This document shows, piece after piece, positions 27,351 through 52,162 of a stretch of 64,000 nt of DNA (the first letter of the stretch is position 1; each line of letters begins with the position of its first letter). This DNA is from a bacterium. GTDB lineage: Bacteria > Bacillota > Clostridia > Lachnospirales > Lachnospiraceae. Both the position numbers and the translations under genes were made by a program. The stretch spans positions 1-64,000 of the forward strand of contig JAMPCE010000007.1 in assembly GCA_023666335.1 (NCBI GenBank). The letters run 5' to 3'. The notes beneath the pieces were generated by a model. It worked only from the letters and a program-made list of their open reading frames with translations, had not been told where the DNA came from and searched no databases.

Positions 27351-30300
27351 TCACTCTAAAAGCTGCAGCGCCAGATTCGAATCCTGCCTGATCTGCGCCA
27401 TCATCGCCACGCCCGCCTGCTCTAAGATATTGTGAATGGAATTCTCCATGACTTCTTTCGAGATGTCGGTATCTCTGATGCGGGATTCCGCCGCCTGCGT
27501 ATTTTCCTCCGCATTCTGGTTGTTGTGGATCGCATGTTCCAGGCGGTTCTGCATCGTGCCGAAATAAGTCCGCACTTCCGAAACCTTTACCACCGCCTCT
27601 TTCAGACGGGCGATCGCTTTCTGGGCGTACTTATATTTCTCGACCGTCAGGGTATTGACGCCCAGAGCGGACGTATCCATCCACGGCTTCTCCACTTCGA
27701 TCCAATCGCCTGAAGTGCTGCTCACCCGAAGACGCATCGGCTCGCTCTTTTCCCATGTGCCATTGTCTGCAAAGAACACCTGATTCTTGACCGCTCCCGA
27801 CAGATGGCTAATCTTATGTTTGCCGTAACTGGTGTGCATCAGCTTTAAGTTGCCGTCATCCTCCAGCGCCGTCAGCGGCACGTTTTTTTCCGCCATCAGC
27901 TCATTTAAATGCTCGATCAGCTCTTTCGAGGAATATACTTCCGGCATCAGCTCAAGTTCGTAATGCTCATCATCCACATCGACGGAAAGAACATTCTGTC
28001 CCTCCTTGATCTCTACGCCTTTCGAGATGTCTTTTCCGCCCTTTATATAGGCTCTGGCAATATCGCCGTCCGTCGCATAGAAGACGCTGAATGCCGCAGT
28101 ACCGCCGATCGCCTCGACGCCGTATTTCATGTCCGCGCCATTCGGAAGATCATCCGGAAGTTTCACCGTCTCCGAAAGCCTGAACGCCAACGCGTTCGCG
28201 TCGTTCGCTCCTTCGACCTTGGTATCCACGATGCCGACAACCGCCTCGATCAAGCCCTCCGGCAGACCGTTTGCTTTTAATGCCTTATCGAGCTGCTTCT
28301 GAATCTGCGCTGCAAGCGCACCGCCCTGATAATAGCCGGGATCCAGAACCATCTCCAGCTTATAGGATTTAACCGTAGTCTCATTTGATCCCTGCCCCTG
28401 CGTTATGTTAAACTCCAAACTCAGCTGATCGTTTCCGTCTTTCTGGATCCTGACTTCCTCATTTTTAACATCCTGCCTGCCGACGGCATATACATCGCTG
28501 CCGTTCTGTTTTCCGTCCACATTCGTCGCTGTCTGCTGCGATATCCCCGTATGGGTGGTGCACATGATCTTCTCAAAAAAGGTGCCGCTCGGACGGCAAT
28601 CCTGATACCCATAGCCGCCGTTTGGAGAAATCCGGGTATCCGTATCCCTGAATATCCTGTATTTCGATCCCGCTTTTACCGCCTCGATACGGACGCCGCT
28701 TTTATCGACCGTCACGTTCATCTTGCGCTCGCCGCCCGTATCCTCATCGATCTTTGCCTGTAACGCGTCCCGCAGTTCATCCATCGTATAGGAACCAGCG
28801 TCAAGCGTGATATCGATCGTCTGTATGGTCGCACGACCGTAGCTTGTCGCTACATAATCCTCCGCAAAGTAAAAAGTCATCTGATTATTGCCGTCGGTAA
28901 TGTCTATTTTCCCTTGCGCATTGAGATCGAGGGCAGCGCCGTCCATAAAAGAATGCTGGCCGGAGTGATAGCCGTCCTCGTATTCCGGATCACTGTAGGT
29001 CGTACTCGTTTCAAAGATAAAGGATCCGCCCCGATAACGTTCGTCATCGTCATGCGATTCCACATAGATCGAGCCGTTCTGCGGATTCGGATCATTCGTT
29101 CCGCCATCCCTCGTAAGCGTGAGTTTCCCGTCGTCTGAGATGGATGCCGTCGCGCCCATGATCGGCGTCGTGCCGAAAATCTTTTTCATGGCGGAATCCG
29201 CATTATAGCTCAGAGAAAGCGTGTGACCCGATCCCTTTGCCACCGACTCAAACACAAGCTGATGGCTGCTGTTTATGCTCACTTTTACCTTGTCACCGAA
29301 CACTCTGTTGAACTCATCCTCAAGATCCTTTTCCGTAGCATATGTTTTTGCTGCCAGTTTTCTCGTAACGACCTCACTGCCTACCTTGATCGTAAAATTC
29401 TGTTCATCACCGCTCGAAAGGGTAAACCCGGTCTTTACCGCCTGATTGGTACGCATCTTATAGGGCGTAGAACCGTCCATGCTGTAATTGCCGCTGTTAT
29501 CGTCTTTCGGATAGCCAAAGAGAAACTCTTTCGCCGCATCGCTCAAGGAAACATCCAGCTTATAGCCATCCCCGCCGTTATCAGTCGAAAACGTCAGACT
29601 TCTTCCGCTGATCGATGCCGTAATGCCGTATTTTCCCAGTTTGCTGCTGCTATTCAGATCGTTCAGAAGATCCGTCTGCCCGGTATACTGATAATCTTTT
29701 TTCAGCTTGACCGTAATGGTCTGCGCCGTTTTTCCCGGCTCTGTCAGCGTCAGTGTGATCGTCGGTTCCCCTTTTGTTTTAAAGGATGTATTTACATACT
29801 TCGACGTATTGCTGCTGCTCAGGGTGACGGAAGCCGGGGTGCCGTACTTGTGCAGATCCCACACAAAAGTTCCCTTGCTTGTGTCCATAGTGATCTTCGT
29901 GTCATCCTGTCCGGACATCTGTAGATTCCCATTCATCAGACCCGCTGTGAGCACCAGCTTATTATTATCCGTGCTCACTTTCACGCCGCCGTACTGGTCG
30001 GGCTGTTTCCCCAGCTTACTGTTTATAACCGTCTGCAACGCGCTCGCAAATTCCGAGGCGGAGGTAAACGAAGTCTTTCCCAGCTCTGTTTTGAGATCTA
30101 TATTGACCGTTGTTGAACCGTTCAGGGTAAAGGAAAACTTTTTATTGTCATCCGTAATCTTAAGGGGCGATGCAGCCGACGCATTGATCGGCAGACCAAA
30201 CGTCACCGTTGCGCCGATGTTTGTTTTATAGGCAAAGCTGCTGCCCTGCCCCGCCGTCGTCTCAGTCTTTCCCACGACATTTTTGTAAGTCAAGTCAGGC

Positions 30301-32771
30301 GGGTAGGAGTGCCACTCACCGTCCGTCGGCGTCCCTTTATTCACCGAATTCGTAATGTCCTCTCCCGACGGCGTTATCTTCGTTGTCGTACACGGTATAT
30401 TCGTTTCATAAGGTTTCAGTTTTTCCGTGATATACTGCGCCAGCGCCTCTTTCGACGCCCATGTCCAAGTCTTCCCGCCATCCGACAGATCGACGCTCCG
30501 CTCGACCCCGTCGATCTTTACGACCAGATTGCTGTACCCACGGTCGATCGTGACCGTGCCGTCGGCGTTCATATGCGCGGCATGGGGATGCCTCGTTCCG
30601 TCTGCCATAGTCGGATCCAACGTGACCTCAGCTTTCGGATTGCGGTACTGCGCCTCATAGTCCTCCTTGTAGTCCTTTCCCTGAAAGATATCGCGAAAAC
30701 CGAGATTCGTACCTGTGACGTTTCCCTGATCGTCCTGATTGTCCGCGCTCTTCACGCGGATCCTGGTGATATCCGGCTGCAAGGCGTCGATCGCGATCTT
30801 CGAGCCTGATCCCGTCACACTTATGACACTACTGTCATAATTTGCGGCACCCAGTTGGTTTTGAATCTCTGTCGCGAGCGTCGATGCGTCGTTATAGGTT
30901 CCGGCAGCCACTTTGACCGTCACCCACATATCCTCCGTATCATCCGCTGCTTTCTGGTTATGAGAGATCAAAATCGAAAACGTGTCGTTTACGCCCTCTT
31001 CGATCAGCAGACTGTTCGCGCTGTTTATGAGCGCGCTGCCCTGCATCCCGGCATTCTCATCGCGCGTGCCGTCATTGCCGCCAAACTGCGCTTTTTCATA
31101 GCCGGTAACGACTGTCCTCGCCGTAAACAGCGTATCATAGGCTGTACTCTTTGCTTTATTGATCCCCACCTTGGTGCCGGGACCATCTTCCTGCGTCGTA
31201 AACACCAGCCCGGTATACCACAGATGATACTGTTTCCTGCCGTAGGGATCCGTCTCGTCTCGGACCTCACCGTCCTGCCAGCTCTTATGCGCTGTTACGT
31301 TAATCCCCCTGTCTTTCAGAACGTTATGCAGCGCCGCCGCCATCTCGTCTATCGTGCTGCCATCCATATTTTTCCCCTGACCGTCAATATTGGTCAGGTC
31401 GATGACGATCTCTCCCTGATCGTTGGGATTGAGCACCAGCAGATTATTCACGCCTTTTTTGATATGGAATACGCTCCGCTCCGGATCTCCCTGATCGCAA
31501 CCGGGCCAGCTTCCCGGCAGGACATTACCGCCCGTAAAGACACCGGGCGTCACCGAGATTTTACTGTGGTGTACATTGTCGTAAAAGACGCCTGTACGGA
31601 TATCGCTGTCGATCTCGAACATATTGCCCTTAAAGTTCGTGATGATGTAATCCGGACTGGAAAGCTTGATCCCCGTGCCATGTTCAGACACAATGACCCC
31701 TTTCTTCGCCGTGTCCGCATCACCCGAATCCCCTGCATCGCCCGCGTCGCCCGCATCGTCCGCCTGTATCCCCGGTACTGTTGCCATCTGCGCATCCAGT
31801 TCCGTCTGTAAAATTTTCATCAGCATCTCTTTCGTATATTTGCCCGAAGCCAGTGCTTTCCCATTTTTATTGGTAAGCTCAATCTGCTTCACTAATTTTC
31901 CCGTCGCGTCCAGCACATCAAAGGAGAGCTCATCGTTGACGCCCGTCTCCACTTCGATAAAGGAACCGTCATTTAGATATACGGTCGTACCGATCAGTGC
32001 GCCCAAATCGCCGCCGCCAAAATTATCATATAAAAGGTAGGAGAGCCCGCCGGAAACCTCATCAATGATCTTTCCGCCTTCCAGATTCAGATTACAAGTT
32101 TCCTGCTTCGTATACTGAAAGCGGAATCCCTTATCCAAAAGCCCCGCTTCTTCCAGAGCCGTATCAATCTCGTCCACCAGCGCCTTTGTCGTATATACCC
32201 CTGCGTCCACCGTGATCGAGACTGTCTCAAGCGGATCGTCTTCATTGATGGCGTAAGTAATCACCAGATCATTTTCGCCCTCCCTGACGGTGTGCAGCTG
32301 CGTGGGTGACCACACGGTCGCACCCTCGATCTGATGGTAAGGCCATTCGTGCTCCTGAAAGATATGCTGTTCATTAAAGGTCGTATTGTCCGTGAGACGA
32401 TCGATCTCCTTTTGCAGGTGGGCAAACTCCTCCTGCATCATGGCGCGGTCTGTGTCCGTATATGTCTCGTTGGACGCCTTGATCGCAAGTTCCGTCATCC
32501 TGTGGAGCATATCGTGCGCTTCTTCCAGAGAGCCGTCTCCGATCTGCACCCAAGAAATGCCGTCCATCGCATTTTCCGTGCCCTGTCTTAAGCCGCGGAT
32601 CATATGACGCATCTTTTCGGAGATGGAAAGCCCTGCCGCATCGTCCGCCGCCCGGTTGATTCGATAACCGGAGGCAAGTTTCTCCGCAGTCTTTGCCTTT
32701 TTCTGCGTATTGATATTCAAATGCCTGCCTGCATTCATCATGAGCATATTGTGTTGAATGGATGAGATCAT
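27351..32771 (-). CDS. Giant flagellin
   Basis: An 1806-residue flagellin, about four to six times normal length. The D0/D1 N-terminus is clear ('ISSIQHNMLMMNAGRHL', 'KTAEKLASGYRINRAADDAAGLSISEKM', 'IRGLRQGTENAMDGISWVQIGDGSLEEAHDMLHRM', to ~residue 145), as is the C-terminus ('IRDTDISKEVMENSIHNILEQAGVAMMAQIRQDSNLALQLL', from ~1700). The ~1550-residue insert repeats a flagellin-hook-IN-like pattern (I-x-x-G-x-N-x-L/F, then a G-x-Y-T/S-x-x-x-L loop) at least six times and has a G-D-A-rich segment. No HExxH, so not a flagellinolysin. ATG 32771 fits GAGG 9 bases upstream. A sigma-28-like promoter and a G10 tract precede it. Confidence 0.9.
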   Translation of the reverse strand: MISSIQHNMLMMNAGRHLNINTQKKAKTAEKLASGYRINRAADDAAGLSISEKMRHMIRGLRQGTENAMDGISWVQIGDGSLEEAHDMLHRMTELAIKASNETYTDTDRAMMQEEFAHLQKEIDRLTDNTTFNEQHIFQEHEWPYHQIEGATVWSPTQLHTVREGENDLVITYAINEDDPLETVSITVDAGVYTTKALVDEIDTALEEAGLLDKGFRFQYTKQETCNLNLEGGKIIDEVSGGLSYLLYDNFGGGDLGALIGTTVYLNDGSFIEVETGVNDELSFDVLDATGKLVKQIELTNKNGKALASGKYTKEMLMKILQTELDAQMATVPGIQADDAGDAGDAGDSGDADTAKKGVIVSEHGTGIKLSSPDYIITNFKGNMFEIDSDIRTGVFYDNVHHSKISVTPGVFTGGNVLPGSWPGCDQGDPERSVFHIKKGVNNLLVLNPNDQGEIVIDLTNIDGQGKNMDGSTIDEMAAALHNVLKDRGINVTAHKSWQDGEVRDETDPYGRKQYHLWYTGLVFTTQEDGPGTKVGINKAKSTAYDTLFTARTVVTGYEKAQFGGNDGTRDENAGMQGSALINSANSLLIEEGVNDTFSILISHNQKAADDTEDMWVTVKVAAGTYNDASTLATEIQNQLGAANYDSSVISVTGSGSKIAIDALQPDITRIRVKSADNQDDQGNVTGTNLGFRDIFQGKDYKEDYEAQYRNPKAEVTLDPTMADGTRHPHAAHMNADGTVTIDRGYSNLVVKIDGVERSVDLSDGGKTWTWASKEALAQYITEKLKPYETNIPCTTTKITPSGEDITNSVNKGTPTDGEWHSYPPDLTYKNVVGKTETTAGQGSSFAYKTNIGATVTFGLPINASAASPLKITDDNKKFSFTLNGSTTVNIDLKTELGKTSFTSASEFASALQTVINSKLGKQPDQYGGVKVSTDNNKLVLTAGLMNGNLQMSGQDDTKITMDTSKGTFVWDLHKYGTPASVTLSSSNTSKYVNTSFKTKGEPTITLTLTEPGKTAQTITVKLKKDYQYTGQTDLLNDLNSSSKLGKYGITASISGRSLTFSTDNGGDGYKLDVSLSDAAKEFLFGYPKDDNSGNYSMDGSTPYKMRTNQAVKTGFTLSSGDEQNFTIKVGSEVVTRKLAAKTYATEKDLEDEFNRVFGDKVKVSINSSHQLVFESVAKGSGHTLSLSYNADSAMKKIFGTTPIMGATASISDDGKLTLTRDGGTNDPNPQNGSIYVESHDDDERYRGGSFIFETSTTYSDPEYEDGYHSGQHSFMDGAALDLNAQGKIDITDGNNQMTFYFAEDYVATSYGRATIQTIDITLDAGSYTMDELRDALQAKIDEDTGGERKMNVTVDKSGVRIEAVKAGSKYRIFRDTDTRISPNGGYGYQDCRPSGTFFEKIMCTTHTGISQQTATNVDGKQNGSDVYAVGRQDVKNEEVRIQKDGNDQLSLEFNITQGQGSNETTVKSYKLEMVLDPGYYQGGALAAQIQKQLDKALKANGLPEGLIEAVVGIVDTKVEGANDANALAFRLSETVKLPDDLPNGADMKYGVEAIGGTAAFSVFYATDGDIARAYIKGGKDISKGVEIKEGQNVLSVDVDDEHYELELMPEVYSSKELIEHLNELMAEKNVPLTALEDDGNLKLMHTSYGKHKISHLSGAVKNQVFFADNGTWEKSEPMRLRVSSTSGDWIEVEKPWMDTSALGVNTLTVEKYKYAQKAIARLKEAVVKVSEVRTYFGTMQNRLEHAIHNNQNAEENTQAAESRIRDTDISKEVMENSIHNILEQAGVAMMAQIRQDSNLALQLLE
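30824..30837. repeat. TGACA-N4-TGTCA palindrome, copy 5
   Basis: Central bases CTAC, in the flagellin insert, encoding D-S-S-V. Confidence 0.7.
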
Positions 32772-32820
32772 GATCATATACCTCACTTTTCGCAACAGCC
32801 CTGTCCCGGGACACCAAAAG

Positions 32821-32840
32821 ATACACTATAGTATGTGTAT
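32821..32840 (-). other. Inverted repeat in the flagellin leader
   Basis: ATACAC (32821-32826) and GTGTAT (32835-32840) form an inverted repeat overlapping the presumed transcription start of the flagellin gene. Confidence 0.4.
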
Positions 32841-32863
32841 CGGCGCGCAGAGGAGGTCTCTTA
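32837..32863 (-). promoter_or_regulatory. Sigma-28 (SigD/FliA)-like flagellin promoter
   Basis: On the minus strand TAAG (32863-32860), 15 bp, then GCCGATAC (32844-32837) closely matches the flagellar sigma-28 consensus TAAA-N15-GCCGATAA. It lies 66 bp upstream of the flagellin start and supports late-class flagellar expression of the whole flagellin-epimerase-cytidylyltransferase-dehydrogenase unit. Confidence 0.75.
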
Positions 32864-32868
32864 ATATA

Positions 32869-32878
32869 CCCCCCCCCC
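32869..32878 (-). repeat. G10 homopolymer upstream of giant flagellin
   Basis: Ten consecutive G on the minus strand, 5 bp upstream of the sigma-28 -35 element. The tract also falls within the 18-bp spacer of a possible sigma-A promoter (TTGTGC, then TATATT). Length change by slippage could alter transcription. Confidence 0.85.
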
Positions 32879-32898
32879 TAAAAAATGCACAAAAAAGT

Positions 32899-33726
32899 TT
32901 AAATGCCCATAAGCGCCCGCTCCAGCATCTGCGACACCTGCGCCAGTACGCCGACGTTTTGCGCCATCGTGAGCATCTGACGGACTACCGCGTCAAAAAT
33001 CCCGTATTCGGCAAGCGCTTTTCTGTGCAGCACGATCATCCTGCACCGCGCCTGAAAATAGCCGCCGACTCTGGAAGACACGCCGCCCTCATGGAGATCG
33101 GAGAACAGAAGCGGCTCATCCACATAGCCGATCTTCTGCTCTTTTGCGATCCGAAGGAACAGTTCCCAATCCTCCAGACAGGTGAGTTCCTCATCGAACA
33201 GACCGCTTTTTGCAAGGCACTCCCTGCGCACGACCGCTGTCGGCGCACCGATCACGTTCCCCTGTAGGAGCAGGCGGTACAGATCTCCCTGCAACAGGCT
33301 TTTCTCGATAGAATCATCGGGAATGTGTATGTGCGTCCCGTCCTGTTTCCTGCCCTCATACATGCAGTAGACCAGCCCGATCTCAGGATCCTCTTCCAGA
33401 ATACGCATCTGTTTTTCCAGTTTATCCGCCCGCCAGACGTCGTCACTGTCCTGAAAGGCGATACAGGAACCCCCGGCGCGCCGGATGCCCTCGTTTCTGG
33501 CTGCGGAAGCGCCGCAGTTTCGCGGCTGCCTGAAATACTGCACTCTATTGTCCGCTTCCGCGATTTTTTGGAGCAATGCCTCCGTGTCGTCCGTTGACGC
33601 ATCGTCAATCACCAGCAGTTCAAAGTCCGTATAGGTCTGTTGTAAAACGCTGTCGATCGCGCGCTCTATACAATAACACCTGTTATATGTCGGCAGGACG
33701 ATGCTTACCGCCTCTCCGTGTTCCAT
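32899..33726 (-). CDS. Family 2 glycosyltransferase
   Basis: A 275-residue GT-A glycosyltransferase. The nucleotide-sugar site is 'VSIVLPTYNRCYCIERAIDSVLQQTYTDFELLVIDDASTDDTE', the D-x-D-like metal site is 'CIAFQDSDDVWRADKLEKQM', and 'LTCLEDWELFLRIAKE' carries the catalytic E-D-W. No membrane segment, so it works at the cytoplasmic side on a lipid-linked or protein acceptor. Start 33726 is set by GGAGA upstream; longer starts add an unconserved N-terminus. It ends just before the flagellin promoter and G10 tract, so a role in flagellin glycosylation is possible but unproven. Confidence 0.88.
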   Translation of the reverse strand: MEHGEAVSIVLPTYNRCYCIERAIDSVLQQTYTDFELLVIDDASTDDTEALLQKIAEADNRVQYFRQPRNCGASAARNEGIRRAGGSCIAFQDSDDVWRADKLEKQMRILEEDPEIGLVYCMYEGRKQDGTHIHIPDDSIEKSLLQGDLYRLLLQGNVIGAPTAVVRRECLAKSGLFDEELTCLEDWELFLRIAKEQKIGYVDEPLLFSDLHEGGVSSRVGGYFQARCRMIVLHRKALAEYGIFDAVVRQMLTMAQNVGVLAQVSQMLERALMGI

Positions 33727-33932
33727 AAATGATAGTCTCCATTCCGCAGCGTTACTTTTCCAGCGATCTCTCCGATGTCCCGCACGCGTCATATCCGGAT
33801 TTCCTGCTTTTCGATATTTATTATTGTAACATTGAAAAACCCTCGTGTAAACCGATTTACCCGCAGAATGCTCCGACGCCGCCGAAAAGCCGCTCTTTTC
33901 AAAAATTTCATACAATCTTTATCACGCTTTCA

Positions 33933-49728: not shown

Positions 49729-50634
49729 TTAATCTTGTTTTAACCCTGCTGATTCGCCGTTTTTCCCCTGATCAAGCTTTCCGATCTCCTCCGGCGAAAA
49801 AACATAGTTCCTGCCGCAGAAATGACAGTGCAGTTCCACATCCTCGCCCGCATCGATCAGCTCCTGCCTGTCCTGTCTGCCAAGGCTTAGGAGCACCTTT
49901 TCCACCCGCTCCCTGCTGCAATCGCACCGAAAAGACACCGGAAGTCTGTCCGTAATCTCCACCCCGAACCCGTCCAGCACCGTCTTCAGAAGCTGTTCCG
50001 GCGTACTGCCCGCCTCTAAGAGCGTGGTCACAGACTGTATCCCGGAAAGCTTTTCTTCCAGCCTGCCGATCACCTCCTCCGAAGCAAAGGGCATCAACTG
50101 TAGGATAAAGCCGCCCGCCTGCCGCACCGTATTCTCCCGGTTCATCAGAACGCCCAGCGCCACAACGGACGGGACCTGTTCGGACGCGGCAAAATAATAG
50201 GTCAGATCATCCGCGATCTCCCCCGTCTGCAAAGCGATCGTAGAAGAATACGGTTCTTTCAGCCCCATATCTTTCATCACATGCAGAACGCCTGCGCCGA
50301 TCACGCCGCCCACATCCAGTTTTCCGGCGCTGTTAGGCGGCATCATGGCCTGCGGACGATCCGCATAGCCTTTCACATGACCTGCGGCGTCCGCCGTCAC
50401 TGTAAGACCGTGCACCGGACCGTCTCCGCTGACCTGCAGCGTAAGCATATCGTTCTCCCCCTTTAACATACTGCCCATCATCAGGGCGCCGCTCATCAGC
50501 CGCCCCAGAGCCGCCGTCACCACGGGGCTTAAGTCATGCGCTGCCCGCGCATATTCCACAAGTTTTCTCGACGTCACCGCGAAAGCGCGTATCTGCGCAT
50601 CCGCCGCGGTCGCCCGCACCATGTAATCTTTCAT
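49729..50634 (-). CDS. hslO: Redox-regulated chaperone Hsp33
   Basis: A 301-residue Hsp33 that holds unfolded proteins during oxidative stress. The redox zinc switch is intact: C-x-C in 'RCDCSRERVEKVLLSLG' and C-x2-C in 'HCHFCGRNYVFSPEE'. The N-terminal domain has 'HDLSPVVTAALGRLMSGALMMGSMLKGENDMLTLQVSGDGP'. GGGAGAAG precedes ATG 50634, which overlaps the stop of the upstream glycosyltransferase by 4 bp, so the two are coupled. Confidence 0.96.
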   Translation of the reverse strand: MKDYMVRATAADAQIRAFAVTSRKLVEYARAAHDLSPVVTAALGRLMSGALMMGSMLKGENDMLTLQVSGDGPVHGLTVTADAAGHVKGYADRPQAMMPPNSAGKLDVGGVIGAGVLHVMKDMGLKEPYSSTIALQTGEIADDLTYYFAASEQVPSVVALGVLMNRENTVRQAGGFILQLMPFASEEVIGRLEEKLSGIQSVTTLLEAGSTPEQLLKTVLDGFGVEITDRLPVSFRCDCSRERVEKVLLSLGRQDRQELIDAGEDVELHCHFCGRNYVFSPEEIGKLDQGKNGESAGLKQD

Positions 50635-52103
50635 TTCTTCTCCCATATCTCCACTCCATATTCGTCTTTTGCCTGTACCAACCGATAATGCTGCGCAAGA
50701 AACTGTTCCATTTCTTCATCCACACCCATGTGAATCCGCAAACAGTATATTTTGTCGTAAGAAAGCAGCTCCTCTTTCGGAATCTGCGCATAATTGGGAT
50801 AAAATCTTGTCTCCTGTTCACTGTGTACCATACTGTCCACAATGTGCGGCGGCGCCTCATAACCTCTTTTTTCGATATAATAGTGCACAAAGCCGTCTAA
50901 CATACAAGCCTCATTGGAACCCACAAACAGAGCCGTATCCGCCCAGACGCCCCCTTCCCGCACCAGATAATCGGCTGCCTCGCGATAGGGTTCCAGCGGT
51001 TTTCGAATTGCTTTATATGAATCCCTGTAGCAGATGCCAAATGTTACCGCGAGCAGCAAAACCACGGCAGCCCGCAGCGTCCACCTCCCCACGCGCAGCA
51101 CAACCCGCTGTGTTGGGAGTCGGTCAGCCAGATTCAGGATCTCTTCGACCCCCAGTGTTGTAATCAATAAGATATGCGGATGCACGACCGTAAAATAACG
51201 CTGTACATATAGACTGCCCTGCGGATTAATATATTTGCTGAATACAAATACGACCCCGATCACCCACGCAACAACAGCCACACAGAATGCCGACAGCATC
51301 ACCTCCGTTTTCTCTTCTGTATCCGCCTGCCGCACTGCCGGCACCACCTTTGCAAATAACAGCAGCCCTGTGAGGAGACACAGAAACCACAGGATGCGAT
51401 TACCATTCAGATAAAACAACACCGTCCAAACCATATCCTTCCATTGCGGCACTTCGGTCCAAAAATGATCAAGTTCTCCGCCTTTGAAATAAAACGATAC
51501 AAAAAGCCACGGGAAGAAAAGGAGACAGCCCGGGACATAACATAACAGGTGTTTCCATGATATTTTCCGCAAAACTGCCATCAACAAATCGGTCACGCCG
51601 TAAAAAAACAGCATGATGCAGGCAAACCAGTGTGTCCAGAGGCAGAGGGCTACAGCCGTAGCAAATAAGATCATATGCTTACGGTCCGGCATACGACACT
51701 TGCCAACAAATGTATAAAATACCAGCGCAGAGAAAAAGAACGCCATCGCATAGCACCTGATTTCCCATGCTGCCTGCCAGAGCAGACTGCTCGAGGATAC
51801 CCCCAGACACAGAGCGATAAACCCTGCCCTTTTTCCCTTTAATCTGTATGCAGACGCCGCCAGCAGCACAATCCCTGCCAGACAGAACAGAATCGAGGGA
51901 AGCAGCAGATACTTTTCTCCATAAGGCATGATCCGGTAAACCACATACAGGAGCAGGGAATACAGCGGCAGATTCGTTTCCCTGTACAGATAGGTATTCA
52001 GCATTTCTGATATACTCAAACCGTTTCTGACAAATCCGATAGACGCAATCTCATCCGCCCAGAATGACTGGCAGTTTCCGTTCATAAAGGCAAACAGCCC
52101 CAT
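50631..52103 (-). CDS. Membrane glycosyltransferase (GT39/ArnT-like), phase-variable 5' end
   Basis: A polytopic protein with about ten hydrophobic segments and the family entry motif 'SFWADEIASIGF' with acidic catalytic residues after the first helix, so it probably moves sugars from a lipid donor outside the membrane. The open frame from 52103 encodes 490 residues but starts halfway through the first membrane helix and lacks a ribosome site of its own. The real start appears to be ATG 52162 (AAAGGAAG upstream), inside the methyltransferase end. It is out of frame here because of the G11 tract. Nine or twelve G would join M-K-N-R-R-K-T-I-E-I-F-V to the main frame. The 3' end overlaps hslO. 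Confidence 0.8.
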   Translation of the reverse strand: MGLFAFMNGNCQSFWADEIASIGFVRNGLSISEMLNTYLYRETNLPLYSLLLYVVYRIMPYGEKYLLLPSILFCLAGIVLLAASAYRLKGKRAGFIALCLGVSSSSLLWQAAWEIRCYAMAFFFSALVFYTFVGKCRMPDRKHMILFATAVALCLWTHWFACIMLFFYGVTDLLMAVLRKISWKHLLCYVPGCLLFFPWLFVSFYFKGGELDHFWTEVPQWKDMVWTVLFYLNGNRILWFLCLLTGLLLFAKVVPAVRQADTEEKTEVMLSAFCVAVVAWVIGVVFVFSKYINPQGSLYVQRYFTVVHPHILLITTLGVEEILNLADRLPTQRVVLRVGRWTLRAAVVLLLAVTFGICYRDSYKAIRKPLEPYREAADYLVREGGVWADTALFVGSNEACMLDGFVHYYIEKRGYEAPPHIVDSMVHSEQETRFYPNYAQIPKEELLSYDKIYCLRIHMGVDEEMEQFLAQHYRLVQAKDEYGVEIWEKK

Positions 52104-52162
52104 CCAGAGCAGTAACCCCCCCCCCCTACAAAAATTTCAATTGTTTTTCTTCGGTTTTTCAT
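52104..52162 (-). other. Out-of-frame true N-terminus of the glycosyltransferase
   Basis: ATG 52162-52160 with AAAGGAAG 8 bases upstream reads M-K-N-R-R-K-T-I-E-I-F-V-G-G-G and then, with 11 G, runs into a stop within about ten codons. With a G count divisible by three it continues L-L-L-W-M-G-L-F-A-F into the main frame, restoring a basic N-terminus and full first membrane helix. Confidence 0.75.
52116..52126 (-). repeat. G11 homopolymer in glycosyltransferase 5' end
   Basis: Eleven G on the minus strand, preceded by TTTTTGTA, much as the G10 tract before the flagellin is preceded by TTTTTTA. Its position inside the coding region makes it a candidate slipped-strand switch. Confidence 0.9.

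Follow-up and report, generated by a model that had tools for sequence, protein, structure and literature searches.

Beside a flagellar promoter in the genome of an uncultured, gut-type bacterium of the Lachnospiraceae lies an uninterrupted run of ten G, and the gene that this promoter precedes encodes a giant flagellin. Does the run work as a slippage switch of the flagellin gene, and on which promoter would such a switch act? The window, by which we mean the whole stretch of 64,000 nucleotides that was analysed, was compared with the remainder of its genome (3.10 Mb in 117 contigs), with genomes of the same genus and with genomes of the family. Judged from these sequence comparisons, the G10 tract is likely to be a functional slippage switch of this giant flagellin; the choice between sigma-A and sigma-28 as the switched promoter is less certain.

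The giant flagellin gene and its promoter region

The flagellin gene occupies 27351..32771 on the minus strand and encodes a protein of ~1,806 aa. Both terminal domains are present above the curated cut-off (Flagellin_N, E 3e-36; Flagellin_C, E 3e-17), and this protein of more than 1,000 aa thus belongs to the giant flagellins. Of the two possible start codons, the ATG at 32771 is better spaced than the alternative ATG at 32777 from GAGG (32781..32784, minus strand, read as 32784-32781), the probable Shine-Dalgarno sequence. Upstream on the same strand lies a family 2 glycosyltransferase gene (32899..33915, stop codon at 32899-32901), the true start of which is probably internal because homologues align only from ~residue 65. 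In four sister genomes its orthologues are placed directly 5' of flaG and fliD, the gap between them containing a sigma-28 site, and for this reason the enzyme probably glycosylates flagellin. Housekeeping genes, gatAB among them, surround the pair in the window, which resembles a gene for flagellar glycosylation next to a flagellin gene.

The two genes are separated by a compact region (32771-32901) in which all elements are read on the minus strand. TTGTGC, a weak sigma-A -35-like hexamer (32887..32892), is followed by the 8 nt ATTTTTTA (32886-32879), by the G10 homopolymer that is the proposed slippage site (32869..32878), and by TATATT, a sigma-A -10-like hexamer that directly abuts the tract (32863..32868). 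With the ten G in place, the spacer between the two hexamers is 18 bp. The sigma-28 site TAAG-N15-GCCGATAC spans 32837..32863, with TAAG at 32863-32860 and GCCGATAC at 32844-32837, and the first T of its TAAG is also the last T of TATATT. Relative to the sigma-28 start, G10 occupies ~-39 to -48. The leader contains the inverted repeat GATACAC-N8-GTGTATC followed by TTTT (32820..32841). A preliminary description of this DNA had given the same order of elements between the glycosyltransferase stop and the flagellin start, the 18-bp spacer and a T-rich run with TA ahead of both G tracts of the window, and all three hold when traced by coordinate. The second of these tracts, a G11 at 52116-52126 (minus strand), lies near the start of a long open reading frame (50631-52103) without Pfam match; it is assembled in the off state because an upstream start and this frame are joined only at G9 or G12.

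The match to the flagellar sigma-28 consensus that the same description had pointed out is borne out by the rest of the genome. The pattern TAAR-N16-CCGATA has 30 matches there compared with 6 for the reversed control, and among the matches suitably positioned ahead of a gene are those of the main flagellin (L120), a FlaG-like protein (L121), an FlgM-like protein (L122) and the giant flagellin itself (L126), the FlaG and FlgM identities being a reading of N-terminal sequences. The 15-bp spacing of the site is also that of the other flagellin promoters in the genus. Because the motif is common to flgM, flaG, the main flagellin and this gene, and in view of the excess over the control, the sigma-28 site of the giant flagellin is very probably real. 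Its core lies wholly downstream of G10, and the spacing within the core is unaffected by tract length.

Poly-G tracts in the genome, in promoters and at flagellin genes

The G10 tract is more than chance and belongs to a maintained class of homopolymers. Overlapping pattern searches (G7, 146 counts; G8, 105; G9, 66), together with a read-out of every run of at least 9, gave 2 exact G7 runs, 6 G8, 5 G9, 23 G10, 5 G11 and none of G12 or longer. Chance predicts a roughly fourfold drop in count for each added G and hence far more G7 than G10, from which we conclude that long G runs are maintained, ten being the preferred length. The tract upstream of the giant flagellin is one of the genome's 33 runs of G9-11. 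Genome-wide, these are preceded by A (20/33) or T (10/33) and followed mostly by T (27/33), and ten of the 33 are directly followed by TANNNT.

Tract length could instead be an artefact of homopolymer calling in sequencing or assembly. A contig end, where assembly struggles, is no more than 25 nt away from five of the 33 tracts (L023, L032, L033, L034 and L037), and the precise number of G in an assembled run cannot be relied upon, a warning that has also been given elsewhere (PMC9187656). The proximity to contig ends fits length heterogeneity and equally well the ordinary trouble of sequencing G runs. However, the placement of tracts between -35 and -10 hexamers and at flagellin starts in many independent assemblies cannot arise from miscalling, and only the exact number ten is uncertain. 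We therefore regard an artefact as highly improbable. Two of the contig ends, those of C49 and C81, have TTA-G10-TAAATA in common, and the two contigs may be adjacent in the genome, with the break at the tract.

Some of the runs have a characteristic place within promoters. In this genome, five stand precisely between TTGAC(A/G) on one side and TAGAAT or TAGACT on the other, and their spacers measure 18-19 bp. In the genus, TTGAC-N7-12-G8-TANNNT occurs at 67 sites in 34 of 77 genomes, and in the family TTGACA-N5-20-G8-TANNNT occurs at ~50 sites in 34 of 397 genomes from 31 genera; the reversed control gave 0 in both searches. The distribution of spacers was taken from the wider list, because the genus-level list is bounded at 19 bp by its own pattern, and it has its peak and its median at 19 bp, whereas the ordinary TTGACA-TANAAT promoters of the genome peak sharply at 17 bp (54/92). 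It may be that most assembled states are weak ones, or that a run of G has a structurally shorter form. In 49 poly-G promoters, the length of the prefix showed no correlation with that of the G run (r ~0, permutation p 0.48), which gives no sign of a spacer held at one length; selection for a fixed total spacer was rejected on these values. Such independence is compatible with drifting tracts, although it is no proof of them. In a conserved promoter of the form TTGACAGAAGGCA-Gn-TAAAGT, the run is G10 at two loci (L076 and L079) and G11 at a third (L077), again a change of one G between species. A single site in another genus (G337:C47:12754-12793) has G21 between TTGACA and TAAACT, far above all other lengths and possibly an assembly artefact.

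The genes next to poly-G promoters encode mostly large proteins with signal-like N-termini, as judged by reading the N-termini without a prediction tool, and some have BspA-type leucine-rich repeats. Tracts without a good -35 adjoin genes for a pullulanase-like protein (L012) and a chemoreceptor (L014); upstream of the former, at about locus position 2501, the G10 is flanked by the near-palindromic AAAATATACT and TATATTTTGC. Other tracts are inside coding sequences. Where the frame is open both before and after such a tract, the assembled copies divide about evenly into in-frame and out-of-frame states, the split expected for switching genes; the G11 of the window is a tract of this kind.

At flagellin genes, G runs are clearly concentrated near the starts. 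In the fetched genus loci, a run of G8 or longer lies within 150 nt upstream of 8 of 32 flagellin starts, a rate of 25% that is biased in that these loci are mainly the best match to the window flagellin in each genome, and these eight make up all but one of the 9 such runs in the whole 149 kb of fetched loci. In three sister giant flagellins the tract is at the ribosome-binding site instead of the promoter (G9 in L043, G8 in L044 and G10 in L046), and ordinary flagellins have G9-10 in the same place (L057, L060, L061 and L062). The flanks in L043 and L044 are nearly identical, leaving a difference of one G between two species. At these seven loci the runs of 8-10 G form or replace the Shine-Dalgarno region, and the tract ends at a constant distance from the start codon. 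In L043 a TAG comes immediately after the tract in the frame of the flagellin, which excludes at this locus a frame switch that would make an N-terminal fusion across the run. Because the position of the tract varies between lineages while its target is unchanged, the sequences suggest that poly-G tracts arose at flagellins repeatedly.

These observations bear on the idea that the tract in the window is a relic or neutral run, a member of a slippage-prone class without effect on a flagellin that is under sigma-28 control only. The sigma-28 core is independent of tract length, and if sigma-28 dominates, tract length could matter little. Moreover, no tract was found upstream of the closest giant-flagellin orthologues (L039, L041 and L042), so that the switch is not conserved along with the gene, and the exact promoter of the window was not found in sister species, the DNA matches in the genus spanning mainly the glycosyltransferase gene. 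On the other hand, the rarity of G7 and G8 beside the abundance of G10 argues that long runs are maintained, and the concentration of poly-G at flagellin starts of the genus argues against a run placed there without consequence. We thus consider a neutral run improbable, and a functional switch remains the reading that we prefer.

The promoter on which a switch would act

In the mechanism that we propose, G10 would be a contingency tract, the length of which is altered by replication slippage. It would belong to the family of poly-G promoters in which the run lies directly ahead of the -10 and sets the distance from -35 to -10, such that the TTGTGC-TATATT spacer, 18 bp as assembled, would become 17 or 19 bp when one G is lost or gained. 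The same change would alter the position of the upstream T-rich stretch with respect to the sigma-28 promoter and leave the sigma-28 core intact; because the core is spared, a point that the preliminary description does not make, the change could act only on the sigma-A promoter or on the region upstream of the sigma-28 promoter. Transcription of the giant flagellin gene would in this way become variable between cells. We infer that the tract slips in this population, that a sigma-A promoter would be active at the locus and that expression would respond. The proposal of the preliminary description that this is a slippage-prone contingency tract finds good support in the comparative evidence on the promoter class and on other flagellins, while its second proposal, a possible sigma-A promoter around G10, is less secure: the tract abuts TATATT, but the -35 is poor and a strict scan of the region returned no sigma-70 promoter. 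TTGTGC agrees with TTGACA at 3 of 6 positions, and because of this poor match a sigma-A promoter in the window is a tentative assignment.

The sigma-28 promoter might be the only one at work. According to this alternative, the flagellin would be transcribed from sigma-28 alone, without a working sigma-A promoter, and the tract would tune transcription from ~-39 to -48 by changing the phasing of a T-rich segment that could serve as an UP-like element; slippage would occur as in the mechanism above and only the promoter affected would differ. Such tuning is favoured by the strength of the sigma-28 motif and its recurrence at flgM, flaG and the main flagellin, and also by the poor -35 and the empty strict scan. 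However, G10 abuts a good -10-like hexamer, and the TTGACA-type poly-G promoters of this genome have precisely this arrangement; for the sister giant flagellins with a tract (L043, L044 and L046), moreover, the promoters look sigma-A-like, and no sigma-28 motif was seen by reading within 300 bp. Tuning of the sigma-28 promoter from upstream is thus a possible but rather unlikely account.

We favour a sigma-A promoter that is switched beside a constant sigma-28 promoter, because the layout matches the poly-G class exactly. At three loci of that class (L010, L013 and L037), TTGACA stands 8 nt ahead of the tract, and TTGTGC has the identical offset in the window. The TTGACA-type class has a clear -35 and a clear -10, whereas here the tract abuts TATATT and the -35 is the weak element. 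The leader might add a further distinction between the two promoters. Its hairpin is weakly stable (7 bp, 3 GC pairs, z -1.0 for the leader), and the predicted sigma-A transcript would carry it in full while a sigma-28 transcript would carry only part of it. Since the full hairpin would be present only in transcripts started upstream, it could attenuate sigma-A transcripts and not sigma-28 ones, which is speculative.

It is tempting to go further and to suppose that phase-variable poly-G promoters exist throughout the Lachnospiraceae, with a G run that abuts the -10 and a working spacer moved to ~18-19 bp, possibly because the run forms a shorter, A-like helix, and that one of them is fused here to a sigma-28 promoter so that the giant flagellin is turned on by chance outside the flagellar hierarchy. 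In this extended form the idea is a conjecture that we would not expect to hold in all its parts.

Relation to known systems

Flagellins of Lachnospiraceae are prominent targets of gut antibody responses. If flagellins and many large surface proteins were indeed switched at random in this family, clonal gut populations would be mosaics of surface types, and metagenomic counts of tract length could read out host selection directly. A literature search, for which subscription journals were largely outside scope, found no report of poly-G phase variation in Lachnospiraceae.

The closest model for the promoter is porA of Neisseria meningitidis, in which a poly-G run lies between the -35 and -10 of the gene for a surface protein and slippage sets the length of the spacer. 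At the level of the class, the resemblance consists in a G homopolymer between -35 and -10 and in a surface protein as target, the -35 in the window being weak. In contrast to porA, the window belongs to a Gram-positive gut lineage, its G run abuts the -10, a sigma-28 promoter overlaps, and the target is a flagellin; in addition, the 19-bp peak of the poly-G class stands against a 17-bp peak for ordinary promoters of the same genome. Compared with sigma-28 (FliA/SigD) promoters, the site has the usual TAAA/G-N15-GCCGATA with the spacing found at flgM, flaG and the main flagellin of the genome, and it is unlike ordinary ones in that one base of its -35 belongs at the same time to a sigma-A-like -10 and that poly-G lies 5 bp upstream.

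The encoded protein resembles described giant flagellins in its length of more than 1,000 aa, its conserved terminal domains and its large central region, and Firmicutes examples have already been listed (PMC6248924); the passages of that study consulted here describe no promoter or ribosome-binding site that could be switched, as is proposed for the gene in the window. For a second system with G tracts of this length, we turn to Bifidobacterium breve, in which G10 and G11 tracts slip measurably and control sortase-dependent pili, and G tracts in promoter spacers are also mentioned (PMC9187656). Although those tracts lie within coding sequence, in another phylum and in a system where slippage has been measured, they share with the window the length of ten or eleven G, a Gram-positive gut commensal as host and surface filaments as target (PMC9187656).
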